Position numbers and translations under genes: made by a program
In this document: in pieces, positions 15,008 through 42,249 of the stretch
Layout: each line of letters starts with the position of its first letter
Position numbering within the stretch: the first letter of the stretch is position 1
From: Sinorhizobium garamanticum
Lineage (GTDB): Bacteria > Pseudomonadota > Alphaproteobacteria > Rhizobiales > Rhizobiaceae
Length of the DNA: 64,000 nt
NCBI RefSeq assembly: GCF_029892065.1
Contig: NZ_CP120373.1
Location: 2,611,001-2,675,000 of the forward strand
Reading direction: 5' to 3'
The notes under the pieces: generated by a model
Databases searched by the model: none
What the model saw: only the letters and a program-made list of their open reading frames with translations
Told to the model about the DNA's origin: nothing

Positions 15008-15234
15008 ACCCCCCTCTGCCCTGCCGGGCATCTCCCCCACAAGGGGGGAGATTGGACGGGGCGCTGTCTTTGCCAGTCAGTGACCGTCGAGGAGTGGAGT
15101 GCTCTTAACGGACGATGGATTGCGGGAATGATGCGGCGGATGGCAGAGATGGGCCGTGGATCAAGAAGCTGGGTGGTCGCGTCTTGCCAATCTCCCCCCT
15201 TGTGGGGGAGATGCCCGGCAGGGCAGAGGGGGGT
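15008..15234. repeat. Inverted pair of identical 48-bp RIME-type repeats
   Basis: The 48 bp at 15008-15055 and the reverse complement of 15187-15234 are identical by eye, separated by about 130 bp of unique sequence. Each arm itself contains the hairpin CTCCCCCACAAGGGGGGAG. The pair lies within the run of cotranscribed-looking genes, between the acyl-CoA dehydrogenase and ligase genes, and could form a very large stem-loop in the mRNA. Confidence 0.85.
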
Positions 15235-15257
15235 GACTTGCGGGAACTCGCCCATCC

Positions 15258-16418: not shown

Positions 16419-16490
16419 TGTTCTCCCTCGTCAATTTTGGTCCGCCTGCTATTGGGCCGATCTCCCCATCGGCCCTTTGCTTGCTTGGCA

Positions 16491-16631
16491 CCCTAACCCT
16501 CTCCTCGCGCGCGGGGAGGGGGACGCTCTTGCTGCCCGCTCCCCGCCGCGACGGAAGAGGGGGCGCCAGTGGTTGCCGCGAGTCCCTTCTCCCCGCCTAC
16601 GGGGAGAAGGCGCCGGCAGGCGGATGAGGGG
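16491..16631. repeat. RIME1-like palindromic element
   Basis: Begins with CCCTAACCCTCTCC, contains two hairpins (around GCGCGGGGAGG and CTCCCCGCCTACGGGGAG) and ends GGCGGATGAGGGG. It separates the acyl-CoA dehydrogenase from the carnitine dehydrogenase gene on the same strand, so it may trim or attenuate that transcript. Confidence 0.8.
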
Positions 16632-16653
16632 CAATCATCCGCCATGATCAACT

Positions 16654-18144: not shown

Positions 18145-18177
18145 TCCCTCTCCTCGATTCCTTGAAATCTCAGTCTG

Positions 18178-18286
18178 CCCTCACCCTAGCCCTCTCCCCG
18201 CAGGCGGGGACAGGGGACTGGGCGCCTACGGCTGCGTCCTTCTCCCGGTCTCGACGGGGAGAAGGTGCCGGCAGGCGGATGAGGGG
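18178..18286. repeat. RIME1-like palindromic element
   Basis: Starts CCTCACCCTAGCCCTCTCCC, carries the inner hairpin of CCCCGCAGGCGGGG, and ends GCCGGCAGGCGGATGAGGGG. It lies between the carnitine dehydrogenase and dehydrocarnitine-cleavage genes of the same strand. Confidence 0.8.
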
Positions 18287-18298
18287 CCGAACTCGCTC

Positions 18299-19201
18299 TT
18301 ACCGCTTCGTCAACTTCAGCGTCTCGCGAACCTCTGCCGGTCCGATGATCTTCGCGCCCATGCCCTCGATGACCGAGACCGCCTTTTCGACGAGCTGGCC
18401 ATTGGTCGCGAGTTGGCCCTTGCCGACATAAAGGTTGTCTTCAAGGCCGACACGGACGTTGCCGCCGGCAAGGATCGCCGCGGCCGGATAGGCGAGCGCA
18501 TTGCGACCGATCGAGAAGGCAGAGAAGGTCCAGTTCGCGGGCACGTTGTTGACCATCGCCATGAAGGTGTTGAGGTCGTCCGGCGCTCCCCACGGAATGC
18601 CCATGCAGAGCTGGATCAGCACCGGATCCTCGATCAGGCCTTCCTCGACGAGCTGCTTGGCGAACCAGAGATGGCCGGTGTCGAAGGCCTCGATCTCGGG
18701 GCGCACGCCAAGGGCGGTCATCTGGCGGGCCATCTCGCGCAGCATCGACGGCGTGTTGGTCATGACATAGTCGCCGAGCGAGAAGTTCATGGTGCCGCAG
18801 TCTAGCGTGCAGATCTCGGGCAGGCATTCGGCAACATGGGCGACGCGCTCGGTGGCACCGGCCATGTCGGTGCCCTTCTCGTTGACCGGGAGGGGGCTTT
18901 CGACATTGCCGAAAACGAGATCCCCACCCATGCCGGCCGTGAGGTTGAGCACAACATCGATGTCGGCGGAACGGATGCGGTCGGTCACCTCCTTGTAGAG
19001 GTCGAGGCGGCGGGCCGGTGCGCCGGTCTCCGGATCGCGGACGTGGCAGTGGACGATCGCCGCACCCGCCTTGGCGGCCTCGACCGCCGCTTCGGCGATC
19101 TGCTTCGGCGTGATCGGGACGTGGCTGGATTTGGAAACGGTGTCTCCCGAACCGGTAACGGCGCAGGTGATGAATACCTCGCGGTTCATGCTGAGCGGCA
19201 T
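18299..19201 (-). CDS. Beta-keto acid cleavage enzyme (BKACE/DUF849), dehydrocarnitine-cleaving
   Basis: 300 aa TIM-barrel family member. It shows the metal-binding signature AAIVHCHVRDPETG near residue 50, NLTAGMGGD and GGNVRVGLEDNLYVGKGQLA near the C-terminus. BKACE enzymes condense a beta-keto acid with acetyl-CoA to give acetoacetate and a new acyl-CoA. The CdhC-type members act on 3-dehydrocarnitine and give betainyl-CoA. The adjacent carnitine dehydrogenase-thioesterase and divergent CdhR-like regulator make that substrate likely. The ATG at 19201 has AGGGAGA 7 bp upstream; a second ATG at 19189 is possible. Confidence 0.9.
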   Translation of the reverse strand: MPLSMNREVFITCAVTGSGDTVSKSSHVPITPKQIAEAAVEAAKAGAAIVHCHVRDPETGAPARRLDLYKEVTDRIRSADIDVVLNLTAGMGGDLVFGNVESPLPVNEKGTDMAGATERVAHVAECLPEICTLDCGTMNFSLGDYVMTNTPSMLREMARQMTALGVRPEIEAFDTGHLWFAKQLVEEGLIEDPVLIQLCMGIPWGAPDDLNTFMAMVNNVPANWTFSAFSIGRNALAYPAAAILAGGNVRVGLEDNLYVGKGQLATNGQLVEKAVSVIEGMGAKIIGPAEVRETLKLTKR

Positions 19202-19257
19202 TGCTGTCTCCCTTTTGTTGGGAGCTATTACGAGCCAGAAAGGTTGGATCTGCTTTT

Positions 19258-19287
19258 CATTATCGGTTGTATCCTATACATTATCGG
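19258..19287. promoter_or_regulatory. Direct repeats CATTATCGG, candidate CdhR operator
   Basis: CATTATCGG occurs at 19258-19266 and 19279-19287, 21 bp apart (two helical turns), within the 109-bp divergent region between the dehydrocarnitine-cleavage gene and the AraC-type regulator gene. Tandem same-face repeats are the usual AraC-family site architecture. Binding by the neighbouring regulator is inferred. Confidence 0.6.
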
Positions 19288-19310
19288 CAGTATGGAGAGG
19301 AAGTTTTGGC

Positions 19311-20282
19311 ATGGACCAGATCGTTTCGCAGGTGCAGCACATCGATTTGCTGGTCCTGCCGGAGACGAACCTGATCCTCGTCGCTTCTGTCGTCGAGCCG
19401 CTGCGCGCCGCCAACCGCATTGCCGGGCGGGCGCTCTATACCTGGACGATCTTCAGCCCGAACGGCGAGGCGATCGAGACCAAGAGCGGCATTCCCATTC
19501 CTGTTTCCGGTCCCTTCCGGCCTCAACGCGAGACGGCGCCGCTCTTCGTGCTTTCGAGCTACAACTGGGAGCGCAGTGCCACCTCGCAGTTGAAGATGCT
19601 CCTGTCGCAGACGGCGCGGCATCGGGATGTCATGGCGGGGATCGAATCCGGCTCGTGGCTGCTTGCCGAGACCAGCCTGCTCGACAATTTTTCGGCCACC
19701 ACCCATTGGGAGGATTTTGAGGATTTCGCCGCCGCCTATCCACAGGTGACCATGGTGCGCGAGCGTTTCGTCATCGATGGCAAACGCATCACCACCGGCG
19801 GGTCGCTGCCGACGCTCGACCTGATGCTGGAACTGATCCGCCGGGCGCATGGCTATTCACTGGCGCTCGAGGTCTCGCGCCTCTTTATTTACGAGCAGGA
19901 GCGCACGCGTGGCGACCTGCTGCAGGTGCCCGCGATCGGCAACATGCGCATTCTTGATGCGCGCGTCGGCGCAGCGGTAAGGCTGATGGAGGAGACGGTC
20001 GAGGCGCCGCTGACGCTCGCGCGCCTCGCACGCCGCGTCGGCGTCAGCGCCCGGCATCTGCAGGATCTCTTCAAGGACACGATGGGCGTTGCCCCGCATG
20101 AGCATTATCTCGCTCTCCGTCTGAATGCCGCGCGTCGAAAGGTGATCGAGACGCGAATGGAGTTCGCCGATATCGCCGCCATCGCCGGCTTCAACTCCTC
20201 GTCCTCGTTTTCGCGCAGCTACCGCGCGCATTACCGCGAAAGCCCCAGCGAAACGCGTCGGCGGCTGAAGCTCAAGAGCTGA
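19311..20282 (+). CDS. GlxA/CdhR-type AraC-family regulator (GATase1-like domain + AraC HTH)
   Basis: 323 aa from the ATG at 19311, preceded by GAGAGGAAG. Upstream in-frame codons run into the divergent gene. Residues about 10-180 form a DJ-1/PfpI-like amidotransferase fold (IDLLVLPETNLILVASVVEP, GIESGSWLLAETSLLD) without evident enzyme use. Residues about 215-320 hold two AraC helix-turn-helices (LARLARRVGVSARHLQDLFK, FADIAAIAGFNSSSSFSRSY). This is the architecture of CdhR, GbdR and related sensors of carnitine, betaine and similar quaternary amines. It is divergent from the carnitine genes and presumably activates them. Confidence 0.9.
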   Translation: MDQIVSQVQHIDLLVLPETNLILVASVVEPLRAANRIAGRALYTWTIFSPNGEAIETKSGIPIPVSGPFRPQRETAPLFVLSSYNWERSATSQLKMLLSQTARHRDVMAGIESGSWLLAETSLLDNFSATTHWEDFEDFAAAYPQVTMVRERFVIDGKRITTGGSLPTLDLMLELIRRAHGYSLALEVSRLFIYEQERTRGDLLQVPAIGNMRILDARVGAAVRLMEETVEAPLTLARLARRVGVSARHLQDLFKDTMGVAPHEHYLALRLNAARRKVIETRMEFADIAAIAGFNSSSSFSRSYRAHYRESPSETRRRLKLKS

Positions 20283-20304: not shown

Positions 20305-21549
20305 TCAGCCGGCGGCGAATTGGCGAACCGAGACAGCGGCTTGGTGCTGCATCGTCAGAAGGCGATTCAGGTCCGCGCCGCTCCGGTCTTCATCATTCTG
20401 AACATGGCTTCGCCGGCCTGGGCCCAAAGGGCTTTTCTTGGCCATACCAGCGTCAAGGACTGTCTGTACTGGGGCGCGAGGCGGATCATCGCCGGTGGGC
20501 GATGGACGCGGGCAAGCGAGCTTTCCGGCAAATATCGAGAGATAGCCGTGGTGGCTGACGAGATTGATGATCACCGGGATCGAGTCCACTTCGATCAGGG
20601 TGACGCGCCGCCGCTCACTTTCGCTGAGCGTATCTTCCAGAAAACGCGTCGCCTCGCGCCTCAGCCCACTCTTGGCACTCGGCACGGCGATCGGGGAGGT
20701 GCAGAGCAGGCGGGCGAAGTCACCGTCCATTTCGGAAAGTGTCGCCGCGGCGCCGGCGAGCGCCAGGGGCGTTTCCGATACGAGCCGGCCATCGAACTCG
20801 TTGGGAAAGTCGGCGACGTCGAGGAGTGCGGCGTCAAAGCGCCGGCTCTTCAGCCCGGCGATGAGTTCGTCCGCCGTCGTGCTCGAAACGAAGAGGTGCT
20901 GGCGGGGGCGCGCCGCATGCCAGGCGGCCGTCAGCGCCGCAAGCATGCGCGCGATCTCGCTCTCGGGGCCGAGCGGCATCACCGCACCGAGACGCCATGT
21001 CGTCGCGTCGCGGCGAAAGCGGTCGTCCGATGCACGCGTCAGGCGTCCCCAGCATTGAAGCAGTTTTTCCGCAAGCGGAATGGCGGCTAGTGCCTCCTCG
21101 GTGCAGGCCACCCCGTGATAAGCGCGCTCGAACAGCCGATATCCGAGATGGCGTTCGAGGCCTGCCATCTGACGCGTAAGCTGGGGCTGGCCGAGGCCGA
21201 GCGTCCGCGCGACGGAGCGTATGCTGCCGTTGCGGGCGATCCTCACGAAACGGTCGAGCGCAGCCAGGCTGACGGGAGGTATCGAGCCTGACGCTGGGCT
21301 CCCGGGGCGGCTGGCGAGAAGCGTTGCGGTGTCGGCTGCCTCCGCTATGTCCGCAATGCGCGCCTGCGCCTCGAGCGTCGGCACGAGCATGGCGCCCTCG
21401 CGGCGAAGCAGCGGCACGGAAATCGTCTGCTCGAAGCGCCTGACGGCGGCGCTGACACTCGACGGCGGGCGCCCGCTGAGCTTTGCCGCGCGCCGTATGC
21501 CGCCTTCACGCAGCGTCGCGTCGACAAGGACGATCGTTGCAATATCCAC
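20305..21549 (-). CDS. LysR-type regulator with two N-terminal HTH domains; C-terminal frameshift
   Basis: Two LysR-type DNA-binding domains lie in tandem. The first has AAKLSGRPPSSVSAAVRRFE. The second, about 90 residues later, has VARTLGLGQPQLTRQMAGLE and LFERAYHGV. A substrate-binding-like domain follows. The open frame runs to 20305, but its last 70 or so residues are not LysR-like. After IVINLVSHHGYLSI homology moves to another frame beginning LPESSLARVHRPPAMIRLAP, with a stop at 20367-20369. One extra base in the AAA run at 20530-20532 would explain it. The start is uncertain: GTG 21549 fits the LysR N-terminus, but ATGs at 21633 and beyond are possible. It is divergent from the ammonia-lyase homologue and probably regulates it. 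Confidence 0.8.
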   Translation of the reverse strand: MDIATIVLVDATLREGGIRRAAKLSGRPPSSVSAAVRRFEQTISVPLLRREGAMLVPTLEAQARIADIAEAADTATLLASRPGSPASGSIPPVSLAALDRFVRIARNGSIRSVARTLGLGQPQLTRQMAGLERHLGYRLFERAYHGVACTEEALAAIPLAEKLLQCWGRLTRASDDRFRRDATTWRLGAVMPLGPESEIARMLAALTAAWHAARPRQHLFVSSTTADELIAGLKSRRFDAALLDVADFPNEFDGRLVSETPLALAGAAATLSEMDGDFARLLCTSPIAVPSAKSGLRREATRFLEDTLSESERRRVTLIEVDSIPVIINLVSHHGYLSIFAGKLACPRPSPTGDDPPRAPVQTVLDAGMAKKSPLGPGRRSHVQNDEDRSGADLNRLLTMQHQAAVSVRQFAAG

Positions 21550-21606: not shown

Positions 21607-21619
21607 ATTCGTTCCGAAT
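21607..21619. promoter_or_regulatory. Short palindrome in divergent promoter
   Basis: ATTCG-TTC-CGAAT lies about 60 bp upstream of the LysR GTG start and 65 bp upstream of the ammonia-lyase-like start. It is a plausible LysR-dimer half-operator, but 5-bp arms are short. The assignment is positional. Confidence 0.3.
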
Positions 21620-21683
21620 TTGGGATATACCATGCATCGGCACTGTGCGCATAGCATGCTCGCAAAAGAGGTTTCATTTCAGC

Positions 21684-23222
21684 ATGCTGCAATCGGTTAA
21701 AACCATCGTACTTTGCGGAAAACCGCTCGACTTCGGGGTACTCGAAGAAATCGGCTCGGGGCTGGCGCGACCCGTCGCGGATGATGCCGGCATGGAGCGG
21801 GTGGCCGCTGCCCACAAGGTGATTGCCGACCGCGTCGCCATGGGCCTGCCGGTTTACGGCTCCAACACCGGGGTCGGCTCGATGAAGGACCGTCTCTGGA
21901 CGGCGGACGATCTCCCCGAATTCAACGCGTCGCTCGTACGCGCCCATCACTTCGGCACCGGCGAATTCTTTGCCGCTCCGATCATCCGCAAGGCGATCGC
22001 CATCCGCGTCAACACCGCGATGCGTGGACATACCGGCTGCAGCCCGGAACTTATCAACGCCTTCGTTGCGCTCCTCGAGCGTGGCATCATCCCGGCCGTG
22101 CGCCGTCATGGCTCGATGGGCTGCGCCGATATCGGACTGATGGGCCAGGTGGCCTCCGTGCTGACCGGCGTCGGCGACGCCTATTATAACGGCCAACTGA
22201 TGACAGCGGAGTCGGCGCTGAGGGAGGCCGGGCTGACCCCCTTCGTCATGCGGCCGCGCGATGCGCTCGCCGCTCTCAGCGTCAATGCAATCTCCTACGC
22301 GGCGGCGGGCGACGTCCTGCGCGAGGCGGCGGCGGCGATTCGTGTCCTGCTCGTCACCGGCGTGATGTCGTCCCGGTCGCTCGGCGCCTCGGCCGATCCG
22401 TGGCTCGTTGCGGCGACGCTTTCGACGCGTGGCGAAGCGCTCGTCGGCTCCTGGCTCTACGGCCAGTCGGGCATTGCCGACTGGCCCTTGCCGACGGCGA
22501 TCCACGATCCGCTGAGCCTTCGCATGACCGCCCAGGTCTTCGGCGCGGTGGTCGACACCCTGCTGGTGGCCGCGGGCCGGCTGGTCGAGGCGACCTATCT
22601 CTCGGACGACAATCCCGTAGTGCTCGGCGGCCAGGTGCATTCATCCGGCGCGTCGCTGCCGCTGACGACGACGCTCTATGTCGAGGCGGCGCAGATCGCC
22701 TTTTCGCATGTGGCGCGCAATGTGTTGAATCGCTGCATCCTGCTTTCGAACGGCGGGCGGCGCAACCTGTCGGTCAATCTCGTCGCGCCCGGAGAGATCG
22801 CCACGGGGCTCGGGCCGCTGATGAAGCTCGCGGTCGAGCTCTACATGCGTGTCCAGTCGCTTGCCGTACCCTTGTCGGCGCAATCGATCGTCGTTGCTGG
22901 CGGATTGGAAGAGGAGGCGACCTTCCTGCCGCTGATCGTCGAACGCATGGAGGCGCAGGTTCGCGACCTCCGCCAGCTGGCTGCGATCGAGGCGATGCTA
23001 TCGGCGCAGGCGATCGATCTCGTCGGCGACGAACCGAAGGGCGTCGTCAGGCTTGCCTATGACCGCACCCGCTCGGTCAGCCCGTTCTATCTCAAGGACC
23101 GCCCGCTCTCGAAGGAGATCGAAGCGCTCCAGGCGGCGTTCACCGATCACGACCTGTTGCGCGCCTTCGTCGAGACGGCGCCCATGCCGGAATTCGACGA
23201 CTTCTTCGCGCTGGCCAAATGA
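21684..23222 (+). CDS. Ammonia-lyase (HAL/PAL) family protein lacking the MIO triad; candidate ergothionase
   Basis: 512 aa from the ATG at 21684. The fold is that of histidine/phenylalanine ammonia-lyases: GLPVYGSNTGVG (Tyr58 region), RGHTGCSPELI, and a C-terminal helical half. Where active HAL/PAL carry GSVGASGDLAP, whose Ala-Ser-Gly cyclises to the MIO cofactor, this protein reads GSMGCADIGLM (residues 143-153). The Ser is Ala and the Gly appears deleted. Ergothionases, which eliminate trimethylamine from ergothioneine, are known MIO-independent members of this family. The cluster downstream (urocanase-like, hydantoinase, carbamoylase) fits that pathway. Substrate assignment is inferred. 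Confidence 0.82.
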   Translation: MLQSVKTIVLCGKPLDFGVLEEIGSGLARPVADDAGMERVAAAHKVIADRVAMGLPVYGSNTGVGSMKDRLWTADDLPEFNASLVRAHHFGTGEFFAAPIIRKAIAIRVNTAMRGHTGCSPELINAFVALLERGIIPAVRRHGSMGCADIGLMGQVASVLTGVGDAYYNGQLMTAESALREAGLTPFVMRPRDALAALSVNAISYAAAGDVLREAAAAIRVLLVTGVMSSRSLGASADPWLVAATLSTRGEALVGSWLYGQSGIADWPLPTAIHDPLSLRMTAQVFGAVVDTLLVAAGRLVEATYLSDDNPVVLGGQVHSSGASLPLTTTLYVEAAQIAFSHVARNVLNRCILLSNGGRRNLSVNLVAPGEIATGLGPLMKLAVELYMRVQSLAVPLSAQSIVVAGGLEEEATFLPLIVERMEAQVRDLRQLAAIEAMLSAQAIDLVGDEPKGVVRLAYDRTRSVSPFYLKDRPLSKEIEALQAAFTDHDLLRAFVETAPMPEFDDFFALAK

Positions 23223-23253
23223 ACTGGCAAAGTGAACGGGAAGGATAAGCGCT

Positions 23254-24636
23254 ATGTCCGATTTCGATCTCGTTCTGAAGGGCACTGTCGTCCTGCCGCA
23301 TCGCATCGTCGAAGGCGGCCACGTGGCGGTGCGAGACGGCAAGGTGGCGCATGTCGGGCAGAGAGCAGCCCCGTCGGCGCGCGAAAGGCACGAGCTCGGC
23401 AAGGCGCTGATTCTTCCCGGCGCGATCGACGCCCAGGTACATTCGCTGTCGCAGAAAAACCAGGAGGATTTCATCTGGTCGACTCGCTCGGCCGCCGCCG
23501 GCGGCGTGACGACGATCGTCGACATGCCCTACGACGAGGGCAATCTCGTCTCATCGGCGGAGGCGGTCCGACGCAAGGTCGCCCATGCCGGTCCGCAGGC
23601 CCGCGTCGACTTTGCGCTCTATGGCACGATCGATCCCGCAGAGGGGCCGTCGCGGATTGGTGAGATGGTGGAGGCGGGTGTTGCCGCCTTCAAGTTCTCG
23701 ACATTTGGAACGGACCCGAAACGGTTCCCGCGAATTCCCGCCGCGCTATTGGAAGAGTGCTTCCGGGCCATCGCCCCGACGGGACTGGCGGCCGGCGTTC
23801 ACAATGAGGATGACGAGGCGGTGCGGGCCGCAATCGATAAGGTCAAGGCCGCCGGAATCAGCGACTATCGGGCACATGGTCTTTCGCGTCCGCCGCTGAC
23901 CGAGCTTCTAGCCACCATCCAGATCTATGAGACGGGTGCGGCAACAGGCTGCCCGGCGCATGTGGTGCATTGCTCGCTCGGTCGCGGCTATGAAATCGCC
24001 GCCGCCTATCGGGCACAGGGTCATGCCGCGACGATCGAGTGCTGTATCCACTATCTCACTTTGGACGAGGAGAACGACGTGCGCCGCCTCGGCGGCAAGG
24101 CCAAGATCAACCCGCCGATCCGCCCGCGCGCAGAGGTCGAAAAACTCTGGCGGCATGTGGCTGGCGGGAATGTGACGCTGGTATCGACCGATCATGTCAG
24201 CTGGTCGGAGGATCGCAAGACCAATCCGGATATGCTGGCCAACGCCTCCGGCGTGCCAGGCCTTGAAGTGATGGTGCCGCTTTTCGTCAAGGGTGCGCTT
24301 GAGCGCAGCATCCCGCTGACGCGCGCGGCCGAGTTGATGGCGCTCAACCCCGCACGGCATTTCCGGCTCGACCATTGCAAGGGCGCGCTCGAAGCCGGCA
24401 AGGACGCCGATATCATCGTCATGACGCCGGAATCCTATGTCTATGATGCGGCGACAAGCGGCAACAATGTCGTCGGCTGGTCGCCCTATAACGGTATTCG
24501 CCTGCCGTGGCGGGTCACCGCCACGTATCTGCGCGGGCGGCTTGCCTTCGACGGTCGCCGCGTGGTCGCGGAGCCGGGCACCGGCGCCTTCGTGCGGCCG
24601 TTGCCGAGCCTGCCGATTCGGGAGCCGCGGCAATGA
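23254..24636 (+). CDS. Hydantoinase/dihydropyrimidinase-type cyclic amidohydrolase
   Basis: 460 aa amidohydrolase-superfamily protein. The first metal motif reads LPGAIDAQVHSLSQ, with Gln in place of the first His of DxHxH, a variant also seen in some rhizobial dihydroorotase-like proteins. The carbamylated-lysine strand is VAAFKFSTFGTDPK. His ligands lie in PAHVVHCS and IECCIHYL, and an Asp ligand lies in VSTDHVSWS. It would open a cyclic ureide ring. In this cluster hydantoin-5-propionate to N-carbamoylglutamate is the natural proposal. The start follows GGGAAGGA 7 bp upstream. Its last 4 bp overlap the carbamoylase gene. Confidence 0.85.
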   Translation: MSDFDLVLKGTVVLPHRIVEGGHVAVRDGKVAHVGQRAAPSARERHELGKALILPGAIDAQVHSLSQKNQEDFIWSTRSAAAGGVTTIVDMPYDEGNLVSSAEAVRRKVAHAGPQARVDFALYGTIDPAEGPSRIGEMVEAGVAAFKFSTFGTDPKRFPRIPAALLEECFRAIAPTGLAAGVHNEDDEAVRAAIDKVKAAGISDYRAHGLSRPPLTELLATIQIYETGAATGCPAHVVHCSLGRGYEIAAAYRAQGHAATIECCIHYLTLDEENDVRRLGGKAKINPPIRPRAEVEKLWRHVAGGNVTLVSTDHVSWSEDRKTNPDMLANASGVPGLEVMVPLFVKGALERSIPLTRAAELMALNPARHFRLDHCKGALEAGKDADIIVMTPESYVYDAATSGNNVVGWSPYNGIRLPWRVTATYLRGRLAFDGRRVVAEPGTGAFVRPLPSLPIREPRQ

Positions 24637-25901
24637 TCGCAACGCAAACCAATCTACCGGTCGATGCAGGCCGCATCGCCGATATCGTCAAGGGGCTGGC
24701 ACGCATCACCGAGCCCGACCGCCCCTACACCCGCCGCGCCTTCACGCCGCTCTTCCTCGAAGGTCGCGCCTTCCTCGAAGAACGGTTCAGGGCCGCGGGC
24801 CTCGATACGAGGATCGACGCGGCCGGCAACCTCATCGGCCGGCGCAAGGGGCGCAAGCCGGCGCTCGGCACGATCATGCTCGGCTCGCATTCCGACACGG
24901 TGCCGGAAGGCGGCCGCTTCGACGGGATCGCCGGCGTTGCGGCCGCGCTCGAAGTGGCGCGGTCTCTTTCCGACGCCGGCATCGAGCTCGACCATGATCT
25001 CGAGATCGTCGATTTCCTTGCCGAGGAGGTGTCGATCTTTGGCGTCTCCTGCGTCGGCAGCCGCGGCATGGCCGGCCTTCTTCCGGATGGCTGGCTGAGC
25101 CGCACACACGACGAGCTGACGCTCCGCCAGGGTATCGTCGAGGCCGGTGGTGATCCTTCCCGTCTGCCTTCGTCTAAGCGCTCCGACGTCAAGGCATTCT
25201 TGGAGCTGCATATCGAGCAGGGGCCGGTGCTCGAGACCGAGCGCCTGGATATTGGCGTCGTGACGGCGATCTCCGGGATCACGCGGATCGAGATCGTCGT
25301 CGAGGGACAGGCGGATCATGCGGGCACGACGCCGATGGGGCGCCGTCGCGACGCGCTTGTTGTCGCCTCGCGCCTTGTGCTGGAGATCGAGAAGCTGGGC
25401 TTTGCCCATGCGGCAGGTGAGGGGCACTTCACCGCGACCGTCGGCGAATTCGAAATAGAACCCAATGCCGCCAATGTCGTGCCCTCGCGGGCACGGCTCT
25501 TGATCGATGCCCGTGCGGAGCGGCGGCCGCAGATGGAGGTGTTCATCACCGAGGTGGAGGCGCTTACCGCCCGCATCGCCGAGGAGACCGGCGTCGCGAT
25601 CACGCCGCCGAAAGTAATCTCCGACAATCACCCGACACCCGGCGATCCCTTGGTTCTTGCCACGCTGGAAGCGGCCTGCGGGCGCGTCGGCGCGCGTCAC
25701 CGGCTGATGGCGTCAGGGGCGGGGCACGACACGGCCTGGATGGGCCGGATAACGAAAGCCGCTATGATCTTCATTCCCTGTCGCGATGGCCGGTCGCATG
25801 CGTCCGAGGAATGGGCGGAAAACGACGATATCGCGCTTGGCGCGGCGGTGCTGCTCGAGGCCGTGCGACGGCTCGACGGACAATTGCAGGAGAAGAAGTA
25901 G
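24633..25901 (+). CDS. M20-family N-carbamoyl-L-amino acid amidohydrolase / allantoate amidohydrolase type
   Basis: 422 aa. The start is the ATG of an ATGA overlap with the hydantoinase stop. Metal and catalytic motifs of the L-carbamoylase/AllC branch are present: LGSHSDTVPEGGRFDG, DFLAEEVSIFG, LELHIEQGPVLE, a dimerisation domain with DHAGTTPMGRRRDA, and the C-terminal ASGAGHDTAWM. It would hydrolyse N-carbamoylglutamate (or a similar carbamoyl amino acid) to the amino acid, CO2 and ammonia. Directly coupled to the hydantoinase, it forms the classical two-step hydantoin utilisation module. The stereochemistry and side chain are inferred. Confidence 0.88.
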   Translation: MIATQTNLPVDAGRIADIVKGLARITEPDRPYTRRAFTPLFLEGRAFLEERFRAAGLDTRIDAAGNLIGRRKGRKPALGTIMLGSHSDTVPEGGRFDGIAGVAAALEVARSLSDAGIELDHDLEIVDFLAEEVSIFGVSCVGSRGMAGLLPDGWLSRTHDELTLRQGIVEAGGDPSRLPSSKRSDVKAFLELHIEQGPVLETERLDIGVVTAISGITRIEIVVEGQADHAGTTPMGRRRDALVVASRLVLEIEKLGFAHAAGEGHFTATVGEFEIEPNAANVVPSRARLLIDARAERRPQMEVFITEVEALTARIAEETGVAITPPKVISDNHPTPGDPLVLATLEAACGRVGARHRLMASGAGHDTAWMGRITKAAMIFIPCRDGRSHASEEWAENDDIALGAAVLLEAVRRLDGQLQEKK

Positions 25902-26999
25902 ATGGGCCGGATATTGACGGAAAAGGATGTCGAGGCGGCGGTCAAGGGCGGCTCCGTCTATGCGGCGGGCGGCGGCGGCTGGGCGGATCACGGGCGCATG
26001 CTGGGGCTTGCGGCCGTCTCGATCGGCAAGCCGGAGCTGGTTTCGATCAACGAGCTGGAGCCGGACGACTGGGTGGCGACCGCCGCTGCAATCGGCGCGC
26101 CGGCCTCGACGACGCCGTGGGAGATGCGTGGAGTCGATTACGTGAAGGCGGTTGAACTGCTGCAGGAGGCGCTCGGTGAAAAGCTTACGGGCCTGATCAT
26201 CGGGCAGAACGGCAAATCCTCGACGCTGAATGGGTGGCTGCCATCGGCGATCCTCGGCACCAAGGTTGTCGATGCCGTCGGCGATATCCGTGCTCATCCC
26301 ACAGGCGACATGGGATCGATTGGCCTTGCCGGTTTGCCCGAGCCGATGATCCAGACGGCAGTCGGTGGAAACCGCGAGGAGAACCGCTATATCGAGCTCG
26401 TGGTCCGGGGTGCGACGGCCAAGGTGTCGCCGATCCTGAGGACCGCGGCGGACATGTCGGGCGGCTTCATCGCCTCCTGCCGCAATCCCGTCCACGCGTC
26501 CTACGTCAAGGCCAATGCCGCGCTTGGCGGCATCTCCATGGCGCTGACTCTGGGAGAGGCGATTATCGCAGCGGAAGGCAAGGGCGGCAGTGCCGTCATC
26601 GATGCCATCACAAATACCACCAATGGCTCCATTCTTGCCGAGGGAACGATCACCGATAAATCCGTGGCTTATACCAAGGAGGCCTTCGACATCGGCACGG
26701 TCACGCTTGGGAAGGGCGATGACTCAACGATACTCCATGTAATGAACGAATACATGGCCGTGGAAACGGCTGACGGTGCGCGCCTTGCCACGTTCCCGGA
26801 TGTCATCACCACGCTGTCGCCGGAAGGCGAACCTTTAAGCGTCGGGCAGTTGCAGGTAGGCATGACGGTCTTCGTGCTGCATGTACCGAAGTCGGTGATC
26901 CCGCTCGCTTCCAGCGTGCTTGACCCGTCCGTCTATCCGCCGGTCGAAAAGGCGATGGGGATCGAGATTGCGCGCTATGCCTTAGCCGGGAAGCGTTGA
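25902..26999 (+). CDS. DUF917-family protein (candidate thiohydantoin-processing enzyme)
   Basis: 365 aa. Recognisable as a DUF917 member by its N-terminal Gly-rich AAGGGGWADHGRMLGL, LVSINELEPDDWVATAAAIGAP, and a C-terminal PDVITTLSPEGEPLSVGQLQ domain. The family is often found with hydantoin-utilisation genes, and no reaction can be read from the sequence alone. The gene starts immediately after the carbamoylase stop, so it is translationally coupled. In an ergothioneine pathway one step is otherwise unassigned here, desulfhydration of the 2-thiohydantoin propionate to hydantoin propionate, which makes this protein the candidate by elimination. Confidence 0.8.
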   Translation: MGRILTEKDVEAAVKGGSVYAAGGGGWADHGRMLGLAAVSIGKPELVSINELEPDDWVATAAAIGAPASTTPWEMRGVDYVKAVELLQEALGEKLTGLIIGQNGKSSTLNGWLPSAILGTKVVDAVGDIRAHPTGDMGSIGLAGLPEPMIQTAVGGNREENRYIELVVRGATAKVSPILRTAADMSGGFIASCRNPVHASYVKANAALGGISMALTLGEAIIAAEGKGGSAVIDAITNTTNGSILAEGTITDKSVAYTKEAFDIGTVTLGKGDDSTILHVMNEYMAVETADGARLATFPDVITTLSPEGEPLSVGQLQVGMTVFVLHVPKSVIPLASSVLDPSVYPPVEKAMGIEIARYALAGKR

Positions 27000-27011
27000 C
27001 GGGAGGACGAT

Positions 27012-27341
27012 GTGGCGCGCGATACCGGGCTTGAGGAACTGGTGAGGCAAGACCTCGGCAATCAGCCGGGGCTTTCGGAAAAGCCGATGTTCGGTGGTTT
27101 GGCCTTTCTTCTGAACGGCAATTTGCTCTGCGGCGCACGAGAGGATGGAATGCTGGTGCGGCTTGGCAAGGGCAATGACCATTGGGCCTTGGCGCTGCCC
27201 GGCATCGTGCAGATGGTGATGGGCGAGCGCCGAATGCACGGCTGGGTGCGCGCCGGCGCGGAGGTCTATGGCGATGACGCCTTGCGCCAGCGCCTGCTGG
27301 ATGCGGCGCTCAGCTACGTGTTTTCGCTGCCGTCGAAGTGA
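27012..27341 (+). CDS. TfoX N-terminal-domain protein
   Basis: 109 aa from a GTG start behind GGGAGGAC. The core motif KPMFGGLAFLLNGNLLCGA is typical of TfoX/Sxy N-terminal domains, and the C-terminal TfoX domain is absent. These stand-alone forms occur widely in alphaproteobacteria and have no established function. It follows the DUF917 gene by 12 bp, so it is cotranscribed, but its link to the pathway is unclear and it may be a passenger. Confidence 0.82.
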   Translation: MARDTGLEELVRQDLGNQPGLSEKPMFGGLAFLLNGNLLCGAREDGMLVRLGKGNDHWALALPGIVQMVMGERRMHGWVRAGAEVYGDDALRQRLLDAALSYVFSLPSK

Positions 27342-27362
27342 ATGATGGGCGGCGTGGGTTGC

Positions 27363-27469
27363 CGCTCATCCGCCTGCCGGCACCTTCTCCCCGCAGGCGG
27401 GGAGAAGGAATATGCCGCGCCTTCCCAGTGCCCTCTCGCCGCCTGCGGGGAGAGGGTTAGGGTGGGGGG
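27363..27469. repeat. RIME1-like palindromic element
   Basis: Starts CGCTCATCCGCCTGCCGGC and ends GGGGAGAGGGTTAGGGTGG, the reverse orientation of the 1864 and 18178 copies. It carries two GC-rich hairpins and separates the TfoX-domain gene from the urocanase-like gene. Confidence 0.8.
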
Positions 27470-27504
27470 CAGATTCGACATCCGCGTAACAAAGGACGAC
27501 CACC

Positions 27505-29163
27505 ATGCCCAAACCCAATCCCCGTCACCCGAACTTTCCCATTCCCGGGGGGCCGGAGCTGCGTGCCAAGGGTTGGCGGCAGGAGGCGCTGCTGCGGTTG
27601 CTCGAAAACGTGCTTTCCGTTGGCGAGGATCCGGACAATCTCGTCGTCTACGCGGCCCTGGGGAAGGCCGCGCGCAACTGGCCGTCCCATCGGGCAATCG
27701 TCAAGACGCTCACCGAGATGGACGAGGACCAGACGCTGGTCATCCAGTCCGGCAAGCCCGTCGGCCTGTTGAAGACCCATGCCAGGGCGCCGCTCGTCAT
27801 CATGGCCAATTGCAACATCGTCGGCCAATGGGCGAAGGCCGAGGTCTTTTACGAGCTGCAGCGAAAGGGTCTGATCTGCTGGGGCGGGCTGACGGCCGGC
27901 GCTTGGCAATATATCGGCAGCCAGGGGGTGATCCAGGGCACCTACGAGATCTTCATGCGGATTGCTGAGCGGCGTTTCGGCGGAGATCTTTCCGGACGTT
28001 TCGTGCTGACCGCCGGGCTCGGCGGCATGGGTGGCGCCCAGCCGCTTGCCGGCCGCATGGCGGGGGCCGCCATCCTCTGCATCGACATCGATCCCGAACG
28101 GGCGAAGAAGCGCCAGCAGGTCGGCTATCTCCAGGAGATCGCGCCTGATCTCGACGCGGCGCTCGCGATGATTGACGCGGCAGTCAAGGAGAGGCGGGCG
28201 CTTTCCGTGGGCCTCGTCGGCAACGCAGCCGAAATCTATCCGGAGATCGCCCGGCGCGGCATCGTTCCGGATGTGGTGACAGACCAGACCTCTGCGCATG
28301 ATCTCGTCTACGGCTATGTGCCGAAGGGCATGAGCCTCGACCAGGTGCGCTCGCTGCGCGAAGATGGGCAGGGCCAGTTGATGGCCGCAAGCCGCGCCTC
28401 GATCGTCGAGCATGTGAAGGCCATGCTCGACTTCCAGAAAAAGGGAGCGGAGGTCTTCGACAACGGCAACCTGATCCGCACGCAGGCGCGGGAAGGGGGC
28501 GTTGCCAACGCCTTCGACATTCCGATCTTCACCGAAGCCTATCTGCGGCCGCTTTTTGCCCGCGCCATCGGCCCGTTCCGCTGGATGGCGCTTTCCGGCG
28601 AAGAGAGCGACATCGCCCTGATCGACGACCTGCTCCTCGAAATGTTCCCGGACAATCGGATCATCACCAACTGGATGCGGCTCGCGCGCCAGCACATTCC
28701 CTTCGAGGGCCTGCCGGCGCGCATCGCTTGGCTCGGCCACGGCGAACGCACGGCGCTCGCCCGGCGCGTCAATCAATTGGTCGCCAGCGGCGGGCTCAAG
28801 GGGCCGGTCGCCTTCTCACGCGATCATCTCGATGCCGGCGCGATGGCGCATCCGAACATCATGACGGAGCGGATGAAGGACGGTTCCGACGCGATCGCCG
28901 ACTGGCCGCTGCTTGACGCCATGCTGCTTTGCTGCTCGATGGCCGACCTCGTCGTCGTCCATTCGGGTGGGGGAGGTTATGCCGGTTACATGACGAGCTG
29001 CGGGGTGACCGTCGTTGCTGACGGCACGAAGGCCGCCGACGAGCGGCTCGACCATGCGCTGACCAACGACACTTCGCTCGGCGTTATCCGCTATGCGGAC
29101 GCGGGGTATGAAGAATCCTTCGAGGAGATCGCTGCAAAGGGCATCGCGCACGTGAAGGTTTGA
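27505..29163 (+). CDS. Urocanase (HutU)-family protein with active-site Cys replaced; candidate thiourocanate hydratase
   Basis: 552 aa, full urocanase length. The NAD-binding core VLTAGLGGMGGAQPLAG, the segment TAGAWQYIGSQGV and DQTSAHDLVYGY are conserved. Two active-site regions diverge: the usual PARICW segment reads PARIAW (Ala408, where I recall the conserved Cys near 410), and the usual HHGGGVGMG loop reads HSGGGGYAG. Canonical urocanase hydrates urocanate to imidazolone propionate. These changes and the MIO-less lyase upstream suggest an altered imidazole substrate such as 2-thiourocanate. It ends the plus-strand catabolic run; convergent genes follow after 12 bp. Confidence 0.85.
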   Translation: MPKPNPRHPNFPIPGGPELRAKGWRQEALLRLLENVLSVGEDPDNLVVYAALGKAARNWPSHRAIVKTLTEMDEDQTLVIQSGKPVGLLKTHARAPLVIMANCNIVGQWAKAEVFYELQRKGLICWGGLTAGAWQYIGSQGVIQGTYEIFMRIAERRFGGDLSGRFVLTAGLGGMGGAQPLAGRMAGAAILCIDIDPERAKKRQQVGYLQEIAPDLDAALAMIDAAVKERRALSVGLVGNAAEIYPEIARRGIVPDVVTDQTSAHDLVYGYVPKGMSLDQVRSLREDGQGQLMAASRASIVEHVKAMLDFQKKGAEVFDNGNLIRTQAREGGVANAFDIPIFTEAYLRPLFARAIGPFRWMALSGEESDIALIDDLLLEMFPDNRIITNWMRLARQHIPFEGLPARIAWLGHGERTALARRVNQLVASGGLKGPVAFSRDHLDAGAMAHPNIMTERMKDGSDAIADWPLLDAMLLCCSMADLVVVHSGGGGYAGYMTSCGVTVVADGTKAADERLDHALTNDTSLGVIRYADAGYEESFEEIAAKGIAHVKV

Positions 29164-29175
29164 TGGCGCGGCGTA

Positions 29176-29937
29176 TCAGACGACCGTCTCCCCGCCATCG
29201 ACCACAAGTATCTGCCCGGTCATGTAGGAAGAACGGTCGGAGACGAGGAAGAGGATCGACTCGGCGATTTCGTCGACGCTTGCCCAGCGGCCGAGCGGAA
29301 CCTTCTCGCGGATATAAGCCTCGATGGCCCCGCGGCCGCCCATTTGCGCAATGAAGGGCTCGTTGAAGGGCGTATTCACCCAGCCGGGGCAGAGCGCGTT
29401 CACCCTGATGCCATATTTCGCATAGTCGCCCGCCATCTGGCGGGTCATGGCGATGACGGCGTGTTTCGTCGTGGTGTAGGCGATCATCTCGCGATCGTAG
29501 AGTACGCCGGAGGACGAGGAGGTATTGAGGATGACGCCGCGGCCCGCCGCCTTCATCGACGGCATGACCAGGCGGGCGGCCATGAAATGGGCGCGGACAT
29601 TGAGGTTCCAGGAGCGGTCGAAGCCCGCCACTTCGACACCTTCCAGATCGCCGGCGACCTGCGCGCCGGCGTGATTGTGCAGGATGTCGATGCGGCCGTG
29701 CCGATAAAGGATATCGGCGATCCCGTCCGAGAGCGCATCGTCGTCGGTGACGTCGATGGCGAGCGCCTCGGCGCTGCCGCCCCTGGCGGCGATGACTGCC
29801 ACCGTCTCTTCCGCGGCCTTCCGGCTGCGGTCGATGACAATGACATGGGCGCCTTCGCACGCCATGATGGCGGCGCCTGCCTGACCGATCCCGGAGCCTG
29901 CTCCGGTGACGATCGCGATCCGGTCTTTCAGGATCAT
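29176..29937 (-). CDS. Short-chain dehydrogenase/reductase (SDR)
   Basis: 253 aa classical SDR. It has the NAD(P)-binding TGAGSGIGQAG near residue 12, and NHAG where NNAG is usual. The catalytic Ser lies in NTSSSSGVLYD and the Tyr-Lys pair in YTTTKHAV. It ends with the typical MTGQILVVDGGETV. The nucleotide segment near the end of strand 2 (VIDRSRKAAEE) has Asp, which favours NAD over NADP. It is the last gene of the minus-strand Pot-type transporter operon, 4 bp after the permease stop, and would oxidise an alcohol derived from the imported compound. The substrate is unknown. Confidence 0.88.
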   Translation of the reverse strand: MILKDRIAIVTGAGSGIGQAGAAIMACEGAHVIVIDRSRKAAEETVAVIAARGGSAEALAIDVTDDDALSDGIADILYRHGRIDILHNHAGAQVAGDLEGVEVAGFDRSWNLNVRAHFMAARLVMPSMKAAGRGVILNTSSSSGVLYDREMIAYTTTKHAVIAMTRQMAGDYAKYGIRVNALCPGWVNTPFNEPFIAQMGGRGAIEAYIREKVPLGRWASVDEIAESILFLVSDRSSYMTGQILVVDGGETVV

Positions 29938-29941: not shown

Positions 29942-30760
29942 TCACTCCCCGGATTTGCTTTTCTTTTCGCGCATGAGCACGCGCGCTGTGAGGATCAGGA
30001 GCAGCGAGGCGACCAGAACCAGGGTCGCGATCGCGTTGATCTCCGGCGTCACGCCACGGCGGATCGAGGCGAAGACGTAGATCGGCAGGGTCGTCTTCGA
30101 GCCGGCGACGAAGAAGGCGATGATGAAATCGTCGAACGAGAAGGTGAAGGCGAGCAGGAAGCCGGCGAGGATCGACGGCAGGATTTGCGGCAGCACGATC
30201 AGGCGGAAGGTGGTGAGCGGCGTCGCGTAAAGATCGCTCGACGCCTCGACGATGTCGCGGCCGAGGCTCGCGATCCGCGCCTTGACGATCATCGTCACCA
30301 GCGCCATCGAGAAGAGGCCGTGGGCGGCAATGATCGAACCATAACCCAGGCCGAGCTGCGGCGGCTGGTCGCCCGGCCAGATCGTCGCGAGCGCCGGATT
30401 GACAAAGGAGAAGACGGCGACGAGCGCGACCAGCGTGGCAATGCCGATGACGACGCCGGGCACAACGATCGCTGCAGCGAACAGGGCATCGAAGACGGCG
30501 CGCGTGCGCGTGCCAAGCCGCTCCATGCCGAGTGCGGCCATGGTGCCGAAGATGGCGGCGAGCGCAGCACTCGTAAAGGCGATCATCAGGCTGTTCTCGA
30601 GCGCCGCGACGAGGAACGTATTGCCGAGCGCCTTACCGTACCAGGCGGTCGAAAAGCCGGTGAACTCGCTCGCGCTGCGGCCTGCATTGAACGAGAACAG
30701 CACGACCAACGCTATCGGCGCGTAGAGGAAGAGATAGACGGAGGAGATGAAGACGCGCAT
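29942..30760 (-). CDS. ABC transporter permease, PotC type
   Basis: 272 aa inner-membrane protein of the spermidine/putrescine permease group. Six membrane spans are predicted, starting VYLFLYAPIALVVLFSFNAG. The EAA loop reads IVEASSDLYATPLTTFRLIVLPQILPS, and FSFDDFIIAFFVAG is typical of PotC. The ATG overlaps the PotB-type stop (TGATG), so the two permeases are coupled. It pairs with the permease at 30760-31626. Confidence 0.92.
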   Translation of the reverse strand: MRVFISSVYLFLYAPIALVVLFSFNAGRSASEFTGFSTAWYGKALGNTFLVAALENSLMIAFTSAALAAIFGTMAALGMERLGTRTRAVFDALFAAAIVVPGVVIGIATLVALVAVFSFVNPALATIWPGDQPPQLGLGYGSIIAAHGLFSMALVTMIVKARIASLGRDIVEASSDLYATPLTTFRLIVLPQILPSILAGFLLAFTFSFDDFIIAFFVAGSKTTLPIYVFASIRRGVTPEINAIATLVLVASLLLILTARVLMREKKSKSGE

Positions 30761-31626
30761 CAGACGAGATCCACCTGTCTTGTTCCGGCGACTTTCCAGG
30801 CGATCCGCATCGCCACCATCAGCACCACGACGACCACCGCGACGAGGGTGACGGCAATCGCCGAGCCGAACGGCCAGTTGCGCGACTGCAGGAAGAGGTC
30901 GACCAGCGCGTTGCCGATGAAGAAGACCTTGCCGCCGCCGAGAAGCTGCGGGATCAGGTACTCGCCGAGGAGCAGGATGGTGACGAGCGCGACGCCGGTC
31001 ATCACACCCGGCAGCGACAGCGGCAAGGTGACGCCGAAGAAGGTGGAGACCGGCTTCGCGCCGAGATCGGCCGAGGCCTCCAGCAGGCGCCGGTCGAGCT
31101 TTTCCAAGCTCACATAGATCGGCATGATCATCAGCGGCAGATAGCCGTAGACGATGCCGAGCAGCACCGCCCCAGGCGTGTTCAGCATACGAACATCCTC
31201 AATGCCGATCATCGCGAGCAGATTGGGAATGCCTCGTGAACCAAGGATATACATCCAGGCGTAGGTGCGCACGAGCAGGCTCGTCCAGAACGGCACGACT
31301 ACCAGCGAAACGAGGATGAGGCGATAACGCGGGTTCGCTTTGACGGCGAGATAATAGGCGACCGGATAGGCGACCAGCAGGCAGAGCAGGGCGCCGGCGG
31401 GCGCAAGCACGAGTGTATTCCAGAATGCTGCCGCCCGCGTCGGCAGGTTGGCGAACTGGGCGAAGGTGAAGGCGGCCTGATATCCGCCCTCCGGCGCGCG
31501 TTCACCGAAGGCAAAGACGAGCATGGCGATGAAGGGGAGAACCAGGAAGACTGTGAGCCATGCGGCTGCCGGCGCCACCAGCGCCGCCGTCACCAGATTC
31601 CTCTTCGTCTTCATTGCCGCTTGCAT
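30760..31626 (-). CDS. ABC transporter permease, PotB type
   Basis: 288 aa from the ATG at 31626, which has GGTGGGA 8 bp upstream. A longer open frame back to 31836 runs through a RIME repeat and is rejected. It has an N-terminal span AALVAPAAAWLTVFLVLPFIA and then five more. The coupling loop reads LLEASADLGAKPVSTFFGVTLP, as in PotB. It forms the heterodimeric channel with the PotC-type protein that follows. Confidence 0.9.
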   Translation of the reverse strand: MQAAMKTKRNLVTAALVAPAAAWLTVFLVLPFIAMLVFAFGERAPEGGYQAAFTFAQFANLPTRAAAFWNTLVLAPAGALLCLLVAYPVAYYLAVKANPRYRLILVSLVVVPFWTSLLVRTYAWMYILGSRGIPNLLAMIGIEDVRMLNTPGAVLLGIVYGYLPLMIMPIYVSLEKLDRRLLEASADLGAKPVSTFFGVTLPLSLPGVMTGVALVTILLLGEYLIPQLLGGGKVFFIGNALVDLFLQSRNWPFGSAIAVTLVAVVVVVLMVAMRIAWKVAGTRQVDLV

Positions 31627-31663
31627 GGAAGTCGTCCCACCAGAAGGTGCACTTTGAATGAGG

Positions 31664-31829
31664 CCGCTCATCCGGCCTGTCGGCCACCTTCTCCCCGCAA
31701 GCGGGGCGAAGGGGAGTCGTGGCGCCCGCTCTGTCCTCTCGATAGCGTGAAGAGAGGAGTGGGGGCGTTTGCGGCTTGTCCCTTCTCCCCGTGCGAACGG
31801 GGAGAAGGTCGCGGCAGCGGGATGAGGGG
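31664..31829. repeat. RIME1-like palindromic element
   Basis: Begins CCGCTCATCCGGCCTGTCGG and ends GCGGCAGCGGGATGAGGGG, with two hairpins (CCCCGCAAGCGGGG and CTCCCCGTGCGAACGGGGAG). It lies between the binding-protein and permease genes of one operon, a position where hairpins often protect the upstream mRNA. Confidence 0.8.
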
Positions 31830-31849
31830 CAAACACGCCATATTCTCGC

Positions 31850-33010
31850 TCACGCCGACTTGAAGCGCGCCATCAGCTCGGCGCGGCCGGGGTCGGTCAG
31901 TGTCACGGCGGCGCCGAATTCGAGCGGCGTGAGAGCCGCTTCGTCCGGATAGACGATCTTGTTCGAGGTGACCTCGGCCGGCAGCAGCTTCAGGACGCGG
32001 CTGTCGGTCGTCGGCGCGCCGTTGACGATGTGTTCCTTGACGGCGTTTTCCGGTGTCATCAGGTAGTTGAGCAGCGCATAGCCGGCCGCCTTGTTGGCCG
32101 CACTTTTCGGGATGGCGTAGAAATCCGACCAGATCTCGCCGCCGTCCTTGCCGAGCACGAACTGGATTTCCGGCATGTCGCGGTTGAGCTGGGCGCCGTC
32201 ATTGGTCCAACACATGGTCATCCAGGCGTCGGTGGCGCGCATCGAGGGCTGGTAATCGCTGTTTATCGCATAAAGATGCGGCTTCACCTTGATCAGCAGT
32301 TCCTCGGCCTTGGCAAGTTCGTCCGGCTTGACGGAGTTGAAGGAGTAGCCGAGCGAGACGAGCGCATTACCGATGGTGGTGAGCTGGTAGTCGTGCACCA
32401 TGGCGCGGCCATCCGCCTCGGTCATCGCCACGTCGAAGAACTCCTTCCAGCTCGTAACCGGCGCCTTTATCTTGCTGGAGTTCACGGCGATGCCGGTCGT
32501 GCCCCAGTTCTTCGGCACGGCATAGGTCTTGCCGTCGACGATGCCCTCGTTGGTGAAGCGCGCGGTCTCGGTCGAGCCGTCGTAGTTCGGCAGCTTCGAC
32601 ATATCGAGCTCGTCGATCAGGCCGAGCTTCACATAAGTGGAAATCGTGTAATTGGTGGGCACGAAGAGGTCCCAGCCGGTGCCGCCCGCCTGCAGCTTTG
32701 CCAGCATTTCCTCGTTCGAGCCGAAGACATTGACCTCGACGGCAACGCCCGTTGCGGCGGTAAAGGCCTCGAAGGTGGCGGGATCGTGGTAGTTCGGCCA
32801 GGTCGCGATCGACATCTGCGTGCCGAGATCGCCGGCGAAGGCGGTGGAACTGAAGAGGCCGGGCTGGCGCGAGAGGACGGCGGTCGCAAGGCCAAGGCCG
32901 GTAACGCCGAGGAAGTGGCGGCGCGTGACCGAGCCGCGCTTCAGGCGCATCAGCTCGTCGGCAAGCTTGTCGGCGGTAATCGGGGCATTCTCTCTGTACC
33001 ACTTGGTCAT
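31850..33010 (-). CDS. ABC transporter periplasmic binding protein, PotD-like
   Basis: 386 aa. It carries a long N-terminal leader with a twin-arginine motif (TRRHFLGVTGLGLATAVLS) ending near residue 55. The mature part is a spermidine/putrescine-type (SBP_bac family) fold with MSIATWPNYHDPATFEAFTA, VNVFGSNEEMLAKLQAGGTG, and a hinge DLFVPTNYT. Ligands of relatives include polyamines and other cationic organic compounds. It sits inside the Pot-type operon between the ATPase gene and permeases. Confidence 0.9.
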   Translation of the reverse strand: MTKWYRENAPITADKLADELMRLKRGSVTRRHFLGVTGLGLATAVLSRQPGLFSSTAFAGDLGTQMSIATWPNYHDPATFEAFTAATGVAVEVNVFGSNEEMLAKLQAGGTGWDLFVPTNYTISTYVKLGLIDELDMSKLPNYDGSTETARFTNEGIVDGKTYAVPKNWGTTGIAVNSSKIKAPVTSWKEFFDVAMTEADGRAMVHDYQLTTIGNALVSLGYSFNSVKPDELAKAEELLIKVKPHLYAINSDYQPSMRATDAWMTMCWTNDGAQLNRDMPEIQFVLGKDGGEIWSDFYAIPKSAANKAAGYALLNYLMTPENAVKEHIVNGAPTTDSRVLKLLPAEVTSNKIVYPDEAALTPLEFGAAVTLTDPGRAELMARFKSA

Positions 33011-33061
33011 GATGCTGTTCCCTTATCGTTGACGTGCAGTGATGGCAGCAGATCCGGCGGT

Positions 33062-34141: not shown

Positions 34142-34240
34142 GTCTGTTCCCTGCGGTTGTTCTTCGAAGATGCGGCACTCCCAGGCCCCATCTTCCACCG
34201 TCATTGCCAAGCAGCCTAGTCAAATGCCGTGGCGCTGGTA

Positions 34241-42245: not shown

Positions 42246-42249
42246 GTGA

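Follow-up and report, generated by a model that had tools for sequence, protein, structure and literature searches.

The window analysed here, a 64-kb stretch of the genome of the soil rhizobium Sinorhizobium garamanticum, contains between positions 21684 and 29163 a set of genes that we regard, with a probability of about 0.92, as a catabolic operon degrading the fungal antioxidant ergothioneine to glutamate (Table 1; coordinates are positions in the window, those of the two HTH_1 domains having been converted from genome coordinates). Such a degradation had already been proposed in a sequence-only reading of this stretch, and the five enzyme genes it named are all found where it had placed them, head to tail on the plus strand. 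The proposal is now carried by two lines of evidence: four of the five enzymes score above the cut-offs of NCBIfam equivalog models made for the ergothioneine pathway, and the fifth, a lyase, shows the active-site pattern of an ergothionase. For all five genes the best family match has an E-value from 3e-75 down to 0, so that chance is not at issue.

Enzymes of the proposed ergothioneine pathway

In the proposed pathway, i) a lyase without the 4-methylideneimidazole-5-one (MIO) group would cleave ergothioneine into thiourocanate and trimethylamine, ii) a urocanase homologue would hydrate thiourocanate to thiohydantoin propionate, iii) a DUF917 protein would exchange the sulfur of the thiohydantoin for oxygen with release of sulfide, iv) ErtD would open the hydantoin ring and v) ErtE would convert N-carbamyl-glutamate to L-glutamate with removal of CO2 and ammonia. 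We infer these reactions from knowledge of the families, and likewise the transcription of the genes as a single unit. A five-step bacterial catabolism of ergothioneine was reportedly described by Beliaeva, Leisinger and Seebeck in 2021, and the window has all five of its enzyme types, among them the DUF917-type desulfurase. Compared with that pathway, the system in the window adds a TfoX_N gene, a LysR-type regulator with tandem helix-turn-helix (HTH) domains and a set of carnitine genes linked to it on the chromosome. The pathway itself is known; new are the regulator architecture, its motif and a Gln substitution in ErtD.

For comparison we used 87 loci, namely 30 stretches sampled across the order (from the 32 order genomes with a desulfurase over its cut-off, minus the own genome and G355, where the contig measures 6 kb) and 57 loci anchored on the lyase (59 minus two distant ones, L121 and L122). 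The two sets share at least one member (L058 and L108, on contigs with an identical length of 280871) and many loci belong to close relatives, so that counts over the 87, including the motif counts below, do not represent independent genomes. All five genes occur together in 77 of the 87 loci (21/30 order-sampled and 56/57 lyase-anchored), and the sole exception among the latter, L087, lies on a 10.6-kb contig.

On the DNA the genes follow each other as lyase, ErtD, ErtE, desulfurase, TfoX_N and hydratase, which corresponds to pathway steps 1-4-5-3-2 and not to the pathway order of family types that had been suggested. The desulfhydrase had also been thought to lack a counterpart; the score of the DUF917 protein, well above the cut-off of the thiohydantoin desulfurase model, identifies it as this enzyme, and thus the step called absent is present. 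In the full texts searched, no paper pairs ergothioneine with DUF917, and among the matches listed for thiohydantoin desulfurase there was nothing on the ergothioneine pathway. The lyase starts at an ATG internal to a longer open reading frame (ORF), and from the lyase to the hydratase the spacing of the five enzyme genes is 31 bp, -4 bp (an overlap), 0 bp and 505 bp. The 505-bp gap houses a sixth gene, encoding the TfoX_N protein, which was missing from the initial gene list and is found in 37/87 loci (39 under looser limits). The third-codon-position GC of the genes is 0.77-0.82, and a scan for sigma-70 promoters and terminators between 20200 and 29400 found neither kind of site.

Two of the assigned enzymes deserve comment. 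ErtE scores higher on the general Zn-hydrolase equivalog NF009531 (681.1 bits, cut-off 486) than on the pathway-specific NF058540 (606.4 bits, cut-off 520), and its six M20 metal-site residues are kept in 81-82 of 82 proteins. ErtD reads DAQVH where the D-hydantoinase 1nfg reads DVHTH, i.e. Gln61 replaces the first His of the HxH motif, whose positions we take to be metal ligands. This Gln is present in 83/83 ErtD proteins found in the 87 loci, and the remaining metal-binding positions are kept; as a guess, the substitution may mark a one-metal hydantoinase site.

The family scores also bear on the nature of the substrate. The urocanase homologue had been called divergent, and this description holds: at positions that split the Protein Data Bank (PDB) entry 7ned from two agreeing ordinary urocanases, it sides 67 times with 7ned and 24 times with the urocanases. 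7ned carries the PDB title “Urocanate hydratase”, and we take it to be the thiourocanate hydratase of Paenibacillus. A route through an S-methyl branch, with S-methyl-ergothioneine or a methylated histidine derivative as substrate, finds some backing in related NCBIfam models that match the hydratase (741 bits) and the desulfurase (283.7 bits). Yet these scores miss the cut-offs of the S-methyl models NF058531 and NF058532 (880 and 450), whereas the cut-offs of the non-methylated ones (930 and 440) are passed; on this basis we rejected the S-methyl branch as highly unlikely. Histidine betaine had been left as an alternative to ergothioneine and is disfavoured because hydratase and desulfurase are both of the thio-specific kind. 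A trimethylammonium leaving group would presumably suffice for an elimination without MIO, which would make hercynine, the histidine betaine without sulfur, conceivable as lyase substrate, but its product urocanate would fit poorly to these two thio-specific enzymes, and we consider this reading very improbable. We give a slight chance to a compound close to ergothioneine, for instance selenoneine or oxidised forms, as the true substrate, with ergothioneine being one of several. Sulfur and selenium substrates are inseparable by sequence, and the ergothionase of Treponema denticola also acts on ergothioneine sulfonic acid; against this, ergothioneine is the abundant natural compound and no pointer to a selenium substrate turned up, though no search aimed at selenium was made. 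As the own genome has no match to EgtD of ergothioneine synthesis, ergothioneine is presumably taken up from outside.

The lyase of the first step

The lyase matches PF00221 with 254 bits, and its best solved sequence match is the T. denticola ergothionase 6s7j (193.6 bits, compared to 135.6 bits for the best histidine ammonia-lyase, HAL). The prediction of an ammonia-lyase homologue without MIO proved correct, since GSMG-CAD stands where HAL has GSVGASGD, and the Ala-Ser-Gly triad that gives MIO is lost. Among the relatives listed, the named ones are labelled “histidine ammonia-lyase” or “aromatic amino acid (ammonia-)lyase”, so that the first step of the pathway is hidden by annotation.

Aligned to the characterised ergothionase, as the sequence-only reading had advised, the lyase shares all 12 compared residues (Y58, K68, D69, H88, N201, A202, D275, L277, R280, D308, K381 and E409) with the T. 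denticola enzyme and seven relatives of the latter. Seven of them differ from the HAL of the own genome, and their frequency among 20 other lyases is 0 for D308, 2 for N201 and K381, 3 for K68 and A202, 5 for L277 and 8 for D69. The pattern is well kept in the 79 lyases of the 87 loci: H88, N201, D275, R280, D308, K381 and E409 are each present in 79/79, Y58 and D69 in 78 (one gap), A202 in 78 and K68 in 76 (R in two, one gap). Nor does the lyase group with MIO-type enzymes. In a tree rebuilt with another rate model and without the 38-residue row L127, the window-type lyases (17 rows) stand together with those of the T. denticola type (8 rows) against the 20 other lyases with an ultrafast bootstrap support (UFBoot) of 96. 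The T. denticola enzyme (6s7j, 6s7q) has in common with the window lyase the fold, the missing MIO triad, a loop shorter by one residue and the 12 residues, but its loop reads SSIG-EGD (GEGD) instead of GSMG-CAD (GCAD), and the window-type lyases form a clade apart from the T. denticola type (UFBoot 100). The top fold match of the AlphaFold2 model (mean predicted local distance difference test, pLDDT, 87.7) is 6s7j, with a template modelling (TM) score of 0.87-0.91.

Several observations weigh against reading the gene set as an ergothioneine operon. HALs match the model of the lyase nearly as well (TM 0.80-0.86), so that the fold alone is not decisive and the active-site pattern decides. Within this pattern, Y58, H88, D275, R280 and E409 recur in 18-20 of the 20 other lyases. 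The sequence identity to 6s7j is about 28%, no higher than to the own-genome HAL (27%). No NCBIfam ergothionase model matched the lyase, and the absence of any curated model naming it counts here as well. A first tree, with L127 as one mis-extracted row, gave the grouping a support of 78, and the position of the root, among the other lyases, is an assumption. Besides, the window's regulator gene shifts frame near its 3' end (20305-20540) relative to 9/9 relatives checked, by either a real frameshift or an assembly error, and none of the transporters could be linked firmly to the operon.

A known parallel is histidine utilisation (hut), which uses homologous enzymes at steps 1 and 2. A second hut route, with lyase and urocanase working on histidine and urocanate, would be consistent with their membership in the Lyase_aromatic and Urocanase families and with a hutU score of 690.7 bits (cut-off 375) for the hydratase. 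The same hydratase reaches 1059 bits on the thiourocanate model, while the lyase, without the MIO triad, scores 196.9 bits on the hutH model against a cut-off of 539; neither HutI nor HutG is among the five genes. The genome has a separate canonical hut set on another contig, all over cut-offs (HutU 967.7, N-formylglutamate deformylase 380.7, HutH 746.6 and HutI 431.6 bits), whose HutH retains Ala-Ser-Gly. The statement that the hut enzymes are absent thus stands for imidazolonepropionase and N-formylglutamate hydrolase within the cluster and fails for the genome, where both belong to this separate set. Based on family scores and MIO loss, we rejected the canonical hut reading, which is extremely unlikely next to degradation of ergothioneine.

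A third lyase of the own genome, L151:9402-10964 (G000:C1:2016485-2017858), is also without the MIO triad (GSVGYLTH) and lies among genes that include HutC and a binding protein of the ProX/OpuAC type. The lyases L143 (G385:C7) and L144 (G294:C60) have an MIO loop shorter by one residue (GAADL and GAGDL) and Lys at the K381 position, with the remaining compared residues partly different; these two are possible enzymes for other betaines.

The LysR-type regulator and an operator-like motif

Divergent from the operon lies a LysR-type regulator gene whose product has two HTH_1 domains, both over the Pfam cut-off, and in this it departs from the usual LysR-type architecture with a single N-terminal HTH. 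The own genome yields 89 HTH_1 matches at 88 places; the ert regulator is the sole gene with two (150 of 230 candidates scored). We scanned the 87 loci with a profile built from seven HTH pieces of ert regulators: the LysR-type ORF adjoining the ert genes has two HTH in 72 loci, one in 5 and none in 10, the 72 including L054 with a weak first HTH and L044 with an odd spacing (323). Five LysR-type ORFs farther off in the same stretches have one HTH each, and clusters without the lyase (L042, L044, L047, L049, L057) retain the double-HTH regulator. The solved LysR-type relatives 1ixc and 7w06 have HTH_1, linker helix and substrate domain in common with the ert regulator but their match to it begins only at the second HTH (from query residue 97). 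In the L079 regulator, modelled with a pLDDT of 86.3, two complete modules can be seen, each made up of three helices, a wing and a linker helix; the predicted TM score of 0.52 means that the relative placement of the two modules is not fixed. A full-text literature search, with most subscription papers outside it, did not bring up any report of a double-HTH LysR protein.

The region between regulator and lyase contains the operator-like element TTTGGGATATACCA. In the 72 loci with the double-HTH regulator, TTGGGATAT occurs in 62 of the divergent regions (290 bp taken) and not once more in the remaining 1,465,623 bp; the regions without it are those of L033, L034, L044, L047, L049, L057, L059, L063, L118 and L120. 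The core GGGATAT is found in 68/72 regions, including six of these ten, with 57 occurrences outside. In the own genome TTTGGGATATACCA has no site with one mismatch, and with up to two mismatches the motif and a reversed control have 8 sites each, so that the exact match alone counts. In L045, L046 and L050, which have no adjacent double-HTH regulator, the palindrome TTTGGGATATCCCA precedes the lyase start by some 50 to 170 bp; the like loci L048 and L051 do not have it there. Distant from the lyase and outside the 72 loci, TTGGGATAT also occurs at L046:14357 and L051:14426. A longer 17-base motif from relatives was discarded; it does not match the window site within two mismatches and has one site elsewhere.

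These positions suggest that the divergent LysR protein would control the operon by binding to TTGGGATAT. For the ert operons of the Hyphomicrobiales in general, we consider it fairly likely that they are switched by a dedicated tandem-HTH LysR subfamily that reads a GGGATAT(A/C)CC-like palindrome in the divergent promoter and senses ergothioneine or an intermediate.

Neighbouring genes and occurrence

Table 1. Features in and around the putative ergothioneine operon, with predicted functions; positions in the 64-kb window
Feature	Position	Strand	Basis
Lyase, step 1, putative ergothionase	21684..23222	+	PDB 6s7j best by sequence and fold; residues; tree
ErtD, step 4, hydantoin-5-propionate amidohydrolase	23254..24636	+	NF058538, 792.5 bits (cut-off 600)
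ErtE, step 5, N-carbamyl-L-glutamate amidohydrolase	24633..25901	+	NF058540, 606.4 bits (cut-off 520)
DUF917 protein, step 3, thiohydantoin desulfurase	25902..26999	+	NF058529, 598.4 bits (cut-off 440)
Small TfoX_N-domain protein, 109 aa	27012..27341	+	PF04993, 40.7 bits (cut-off 30.1)
Thiourocanate hydratase (urocanase homologue), step 2	27505..29163	+	NF058530, 1058.7 bits (cut-off 930)
Operator-like element TTTGGGATATACCA, between regulator and lyase	21619..21632	+	Exact 14-mer once in 6.83-Mb genome
LysR-type regulator, divergent from operon	20305..21549	-	Pfam HTH_1 (two) and LysR_substrate
First (N-terminal) HTH_1 of regulator	21367..21531	-	PF00126, 40.4 bits (cut-off 26.6)
Second HTH_1 of regulator	21091..21261	-	PF00126, 56.0 bits (cut-off 26.6)
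Carnitine gene set: CoA ligase, acyl-CoA dehydrogenase, carnitine 3-dehydrogenase/thioesterase, BKACE, GbdR-like regulator	12899..20282		Family matches
Short-chain dehydrogenase, convergent neighbour	29176..29937	-	PF13561, PF00106
PotABCD-like ABC importer: two permeases, binding protein, ATPase	29942..34210	-	Best NCBIfam PotC, PotB, PotD, PotA

On the far side of the regulator lies the carnitine gene set, in which 16654-18144 matches NF005716 with 928.7 bits (cut-off 592) and the GbdR-like regulator stays under the GbdR cut-off. The linkage recurs in the lyase-anchored loci, which are nearly all from Rhizobiaceae (carnitine 3-dehydrogenase 55/57, BKACE 56/57, GbdR-like 56/57), compared with 0/30, 0/30 and 1/30 in the order-sampled stretches.

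Downstream of the operon, the PotABCD-like ATP-binding cassette (ABC) importer is a possible candidate for import into the ergothioneine pathway. None of its proteins passes an equivalog cut-off; on the potA subfamily model, the ATPase scores 361.7 bits, over the cut-off of 355.6. A PotD-like gene is found in 15/57 lyase-anchored loci and 0/30 order-sampled stretches (many stretches, however, end before it), and the best solved relatives are mostly polyamine binders; on these grounds the transporter could not be linked to the pathway. No OpuAC-type binding protein gene is among the operon genes of the window, and the genome has eight OpuAC matches elsewhere. At L053:2846-6781 a complete ABC importer sits between lyase and ErtD; its binding protein is of the OsmF type (490.7 bits, cut-off 400), and the system is a candidate ergothioneine importer; ABC ATPase matches occur at the same place in other loci. 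Farther along the window, 41184-52963 encodes a second Pot-like ATPase and a glutamine-synthetase-like protein as well as two dehydrogenases, one for aldehydes and one of the iron-type alcohol class, which suggests an amine or polyamine degradation set separate from the ert operon.

The gene set is unevenly spread among rhizobia: a desulfurase over the cut-off is found in 32/397 genomes of the order, and a hydratase over the cut-off in 62/394 Rhizobiaceae genomes and in two of the eight same-genus genomes listed. Among relatives with a name, Ensifer/Sinorhizobium come closest, with 95-96% for the lyase. A desulfurase without a nearby lyase occurs in L037, L042, L047, L049 and L057, accompanied by the hydratase in all except L037. 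Whole-genome searches found no window-type lyase in G226, G207, G294 and G236, nothing but lyase fragments in G367, and a window-type lyase elsewhere in the genome in G282, G288 and G359. Clusters without the lyase perhaps belong to users of thiourocanate made by others.

According to a review, fungi and some bacteria produce ergothioneine, animals obtain it via food, and Agrobacterium radiobacter is said to have ergothionase (PMC7653990). Students of the LysR family would find a member with two DNA-binding modules of interest, and the tandem-HTH regulator together with its motif offers a direct handle for testing how the pathway is switched. In soil and near roots, destroyers of ergothioneine may help to set its supply.

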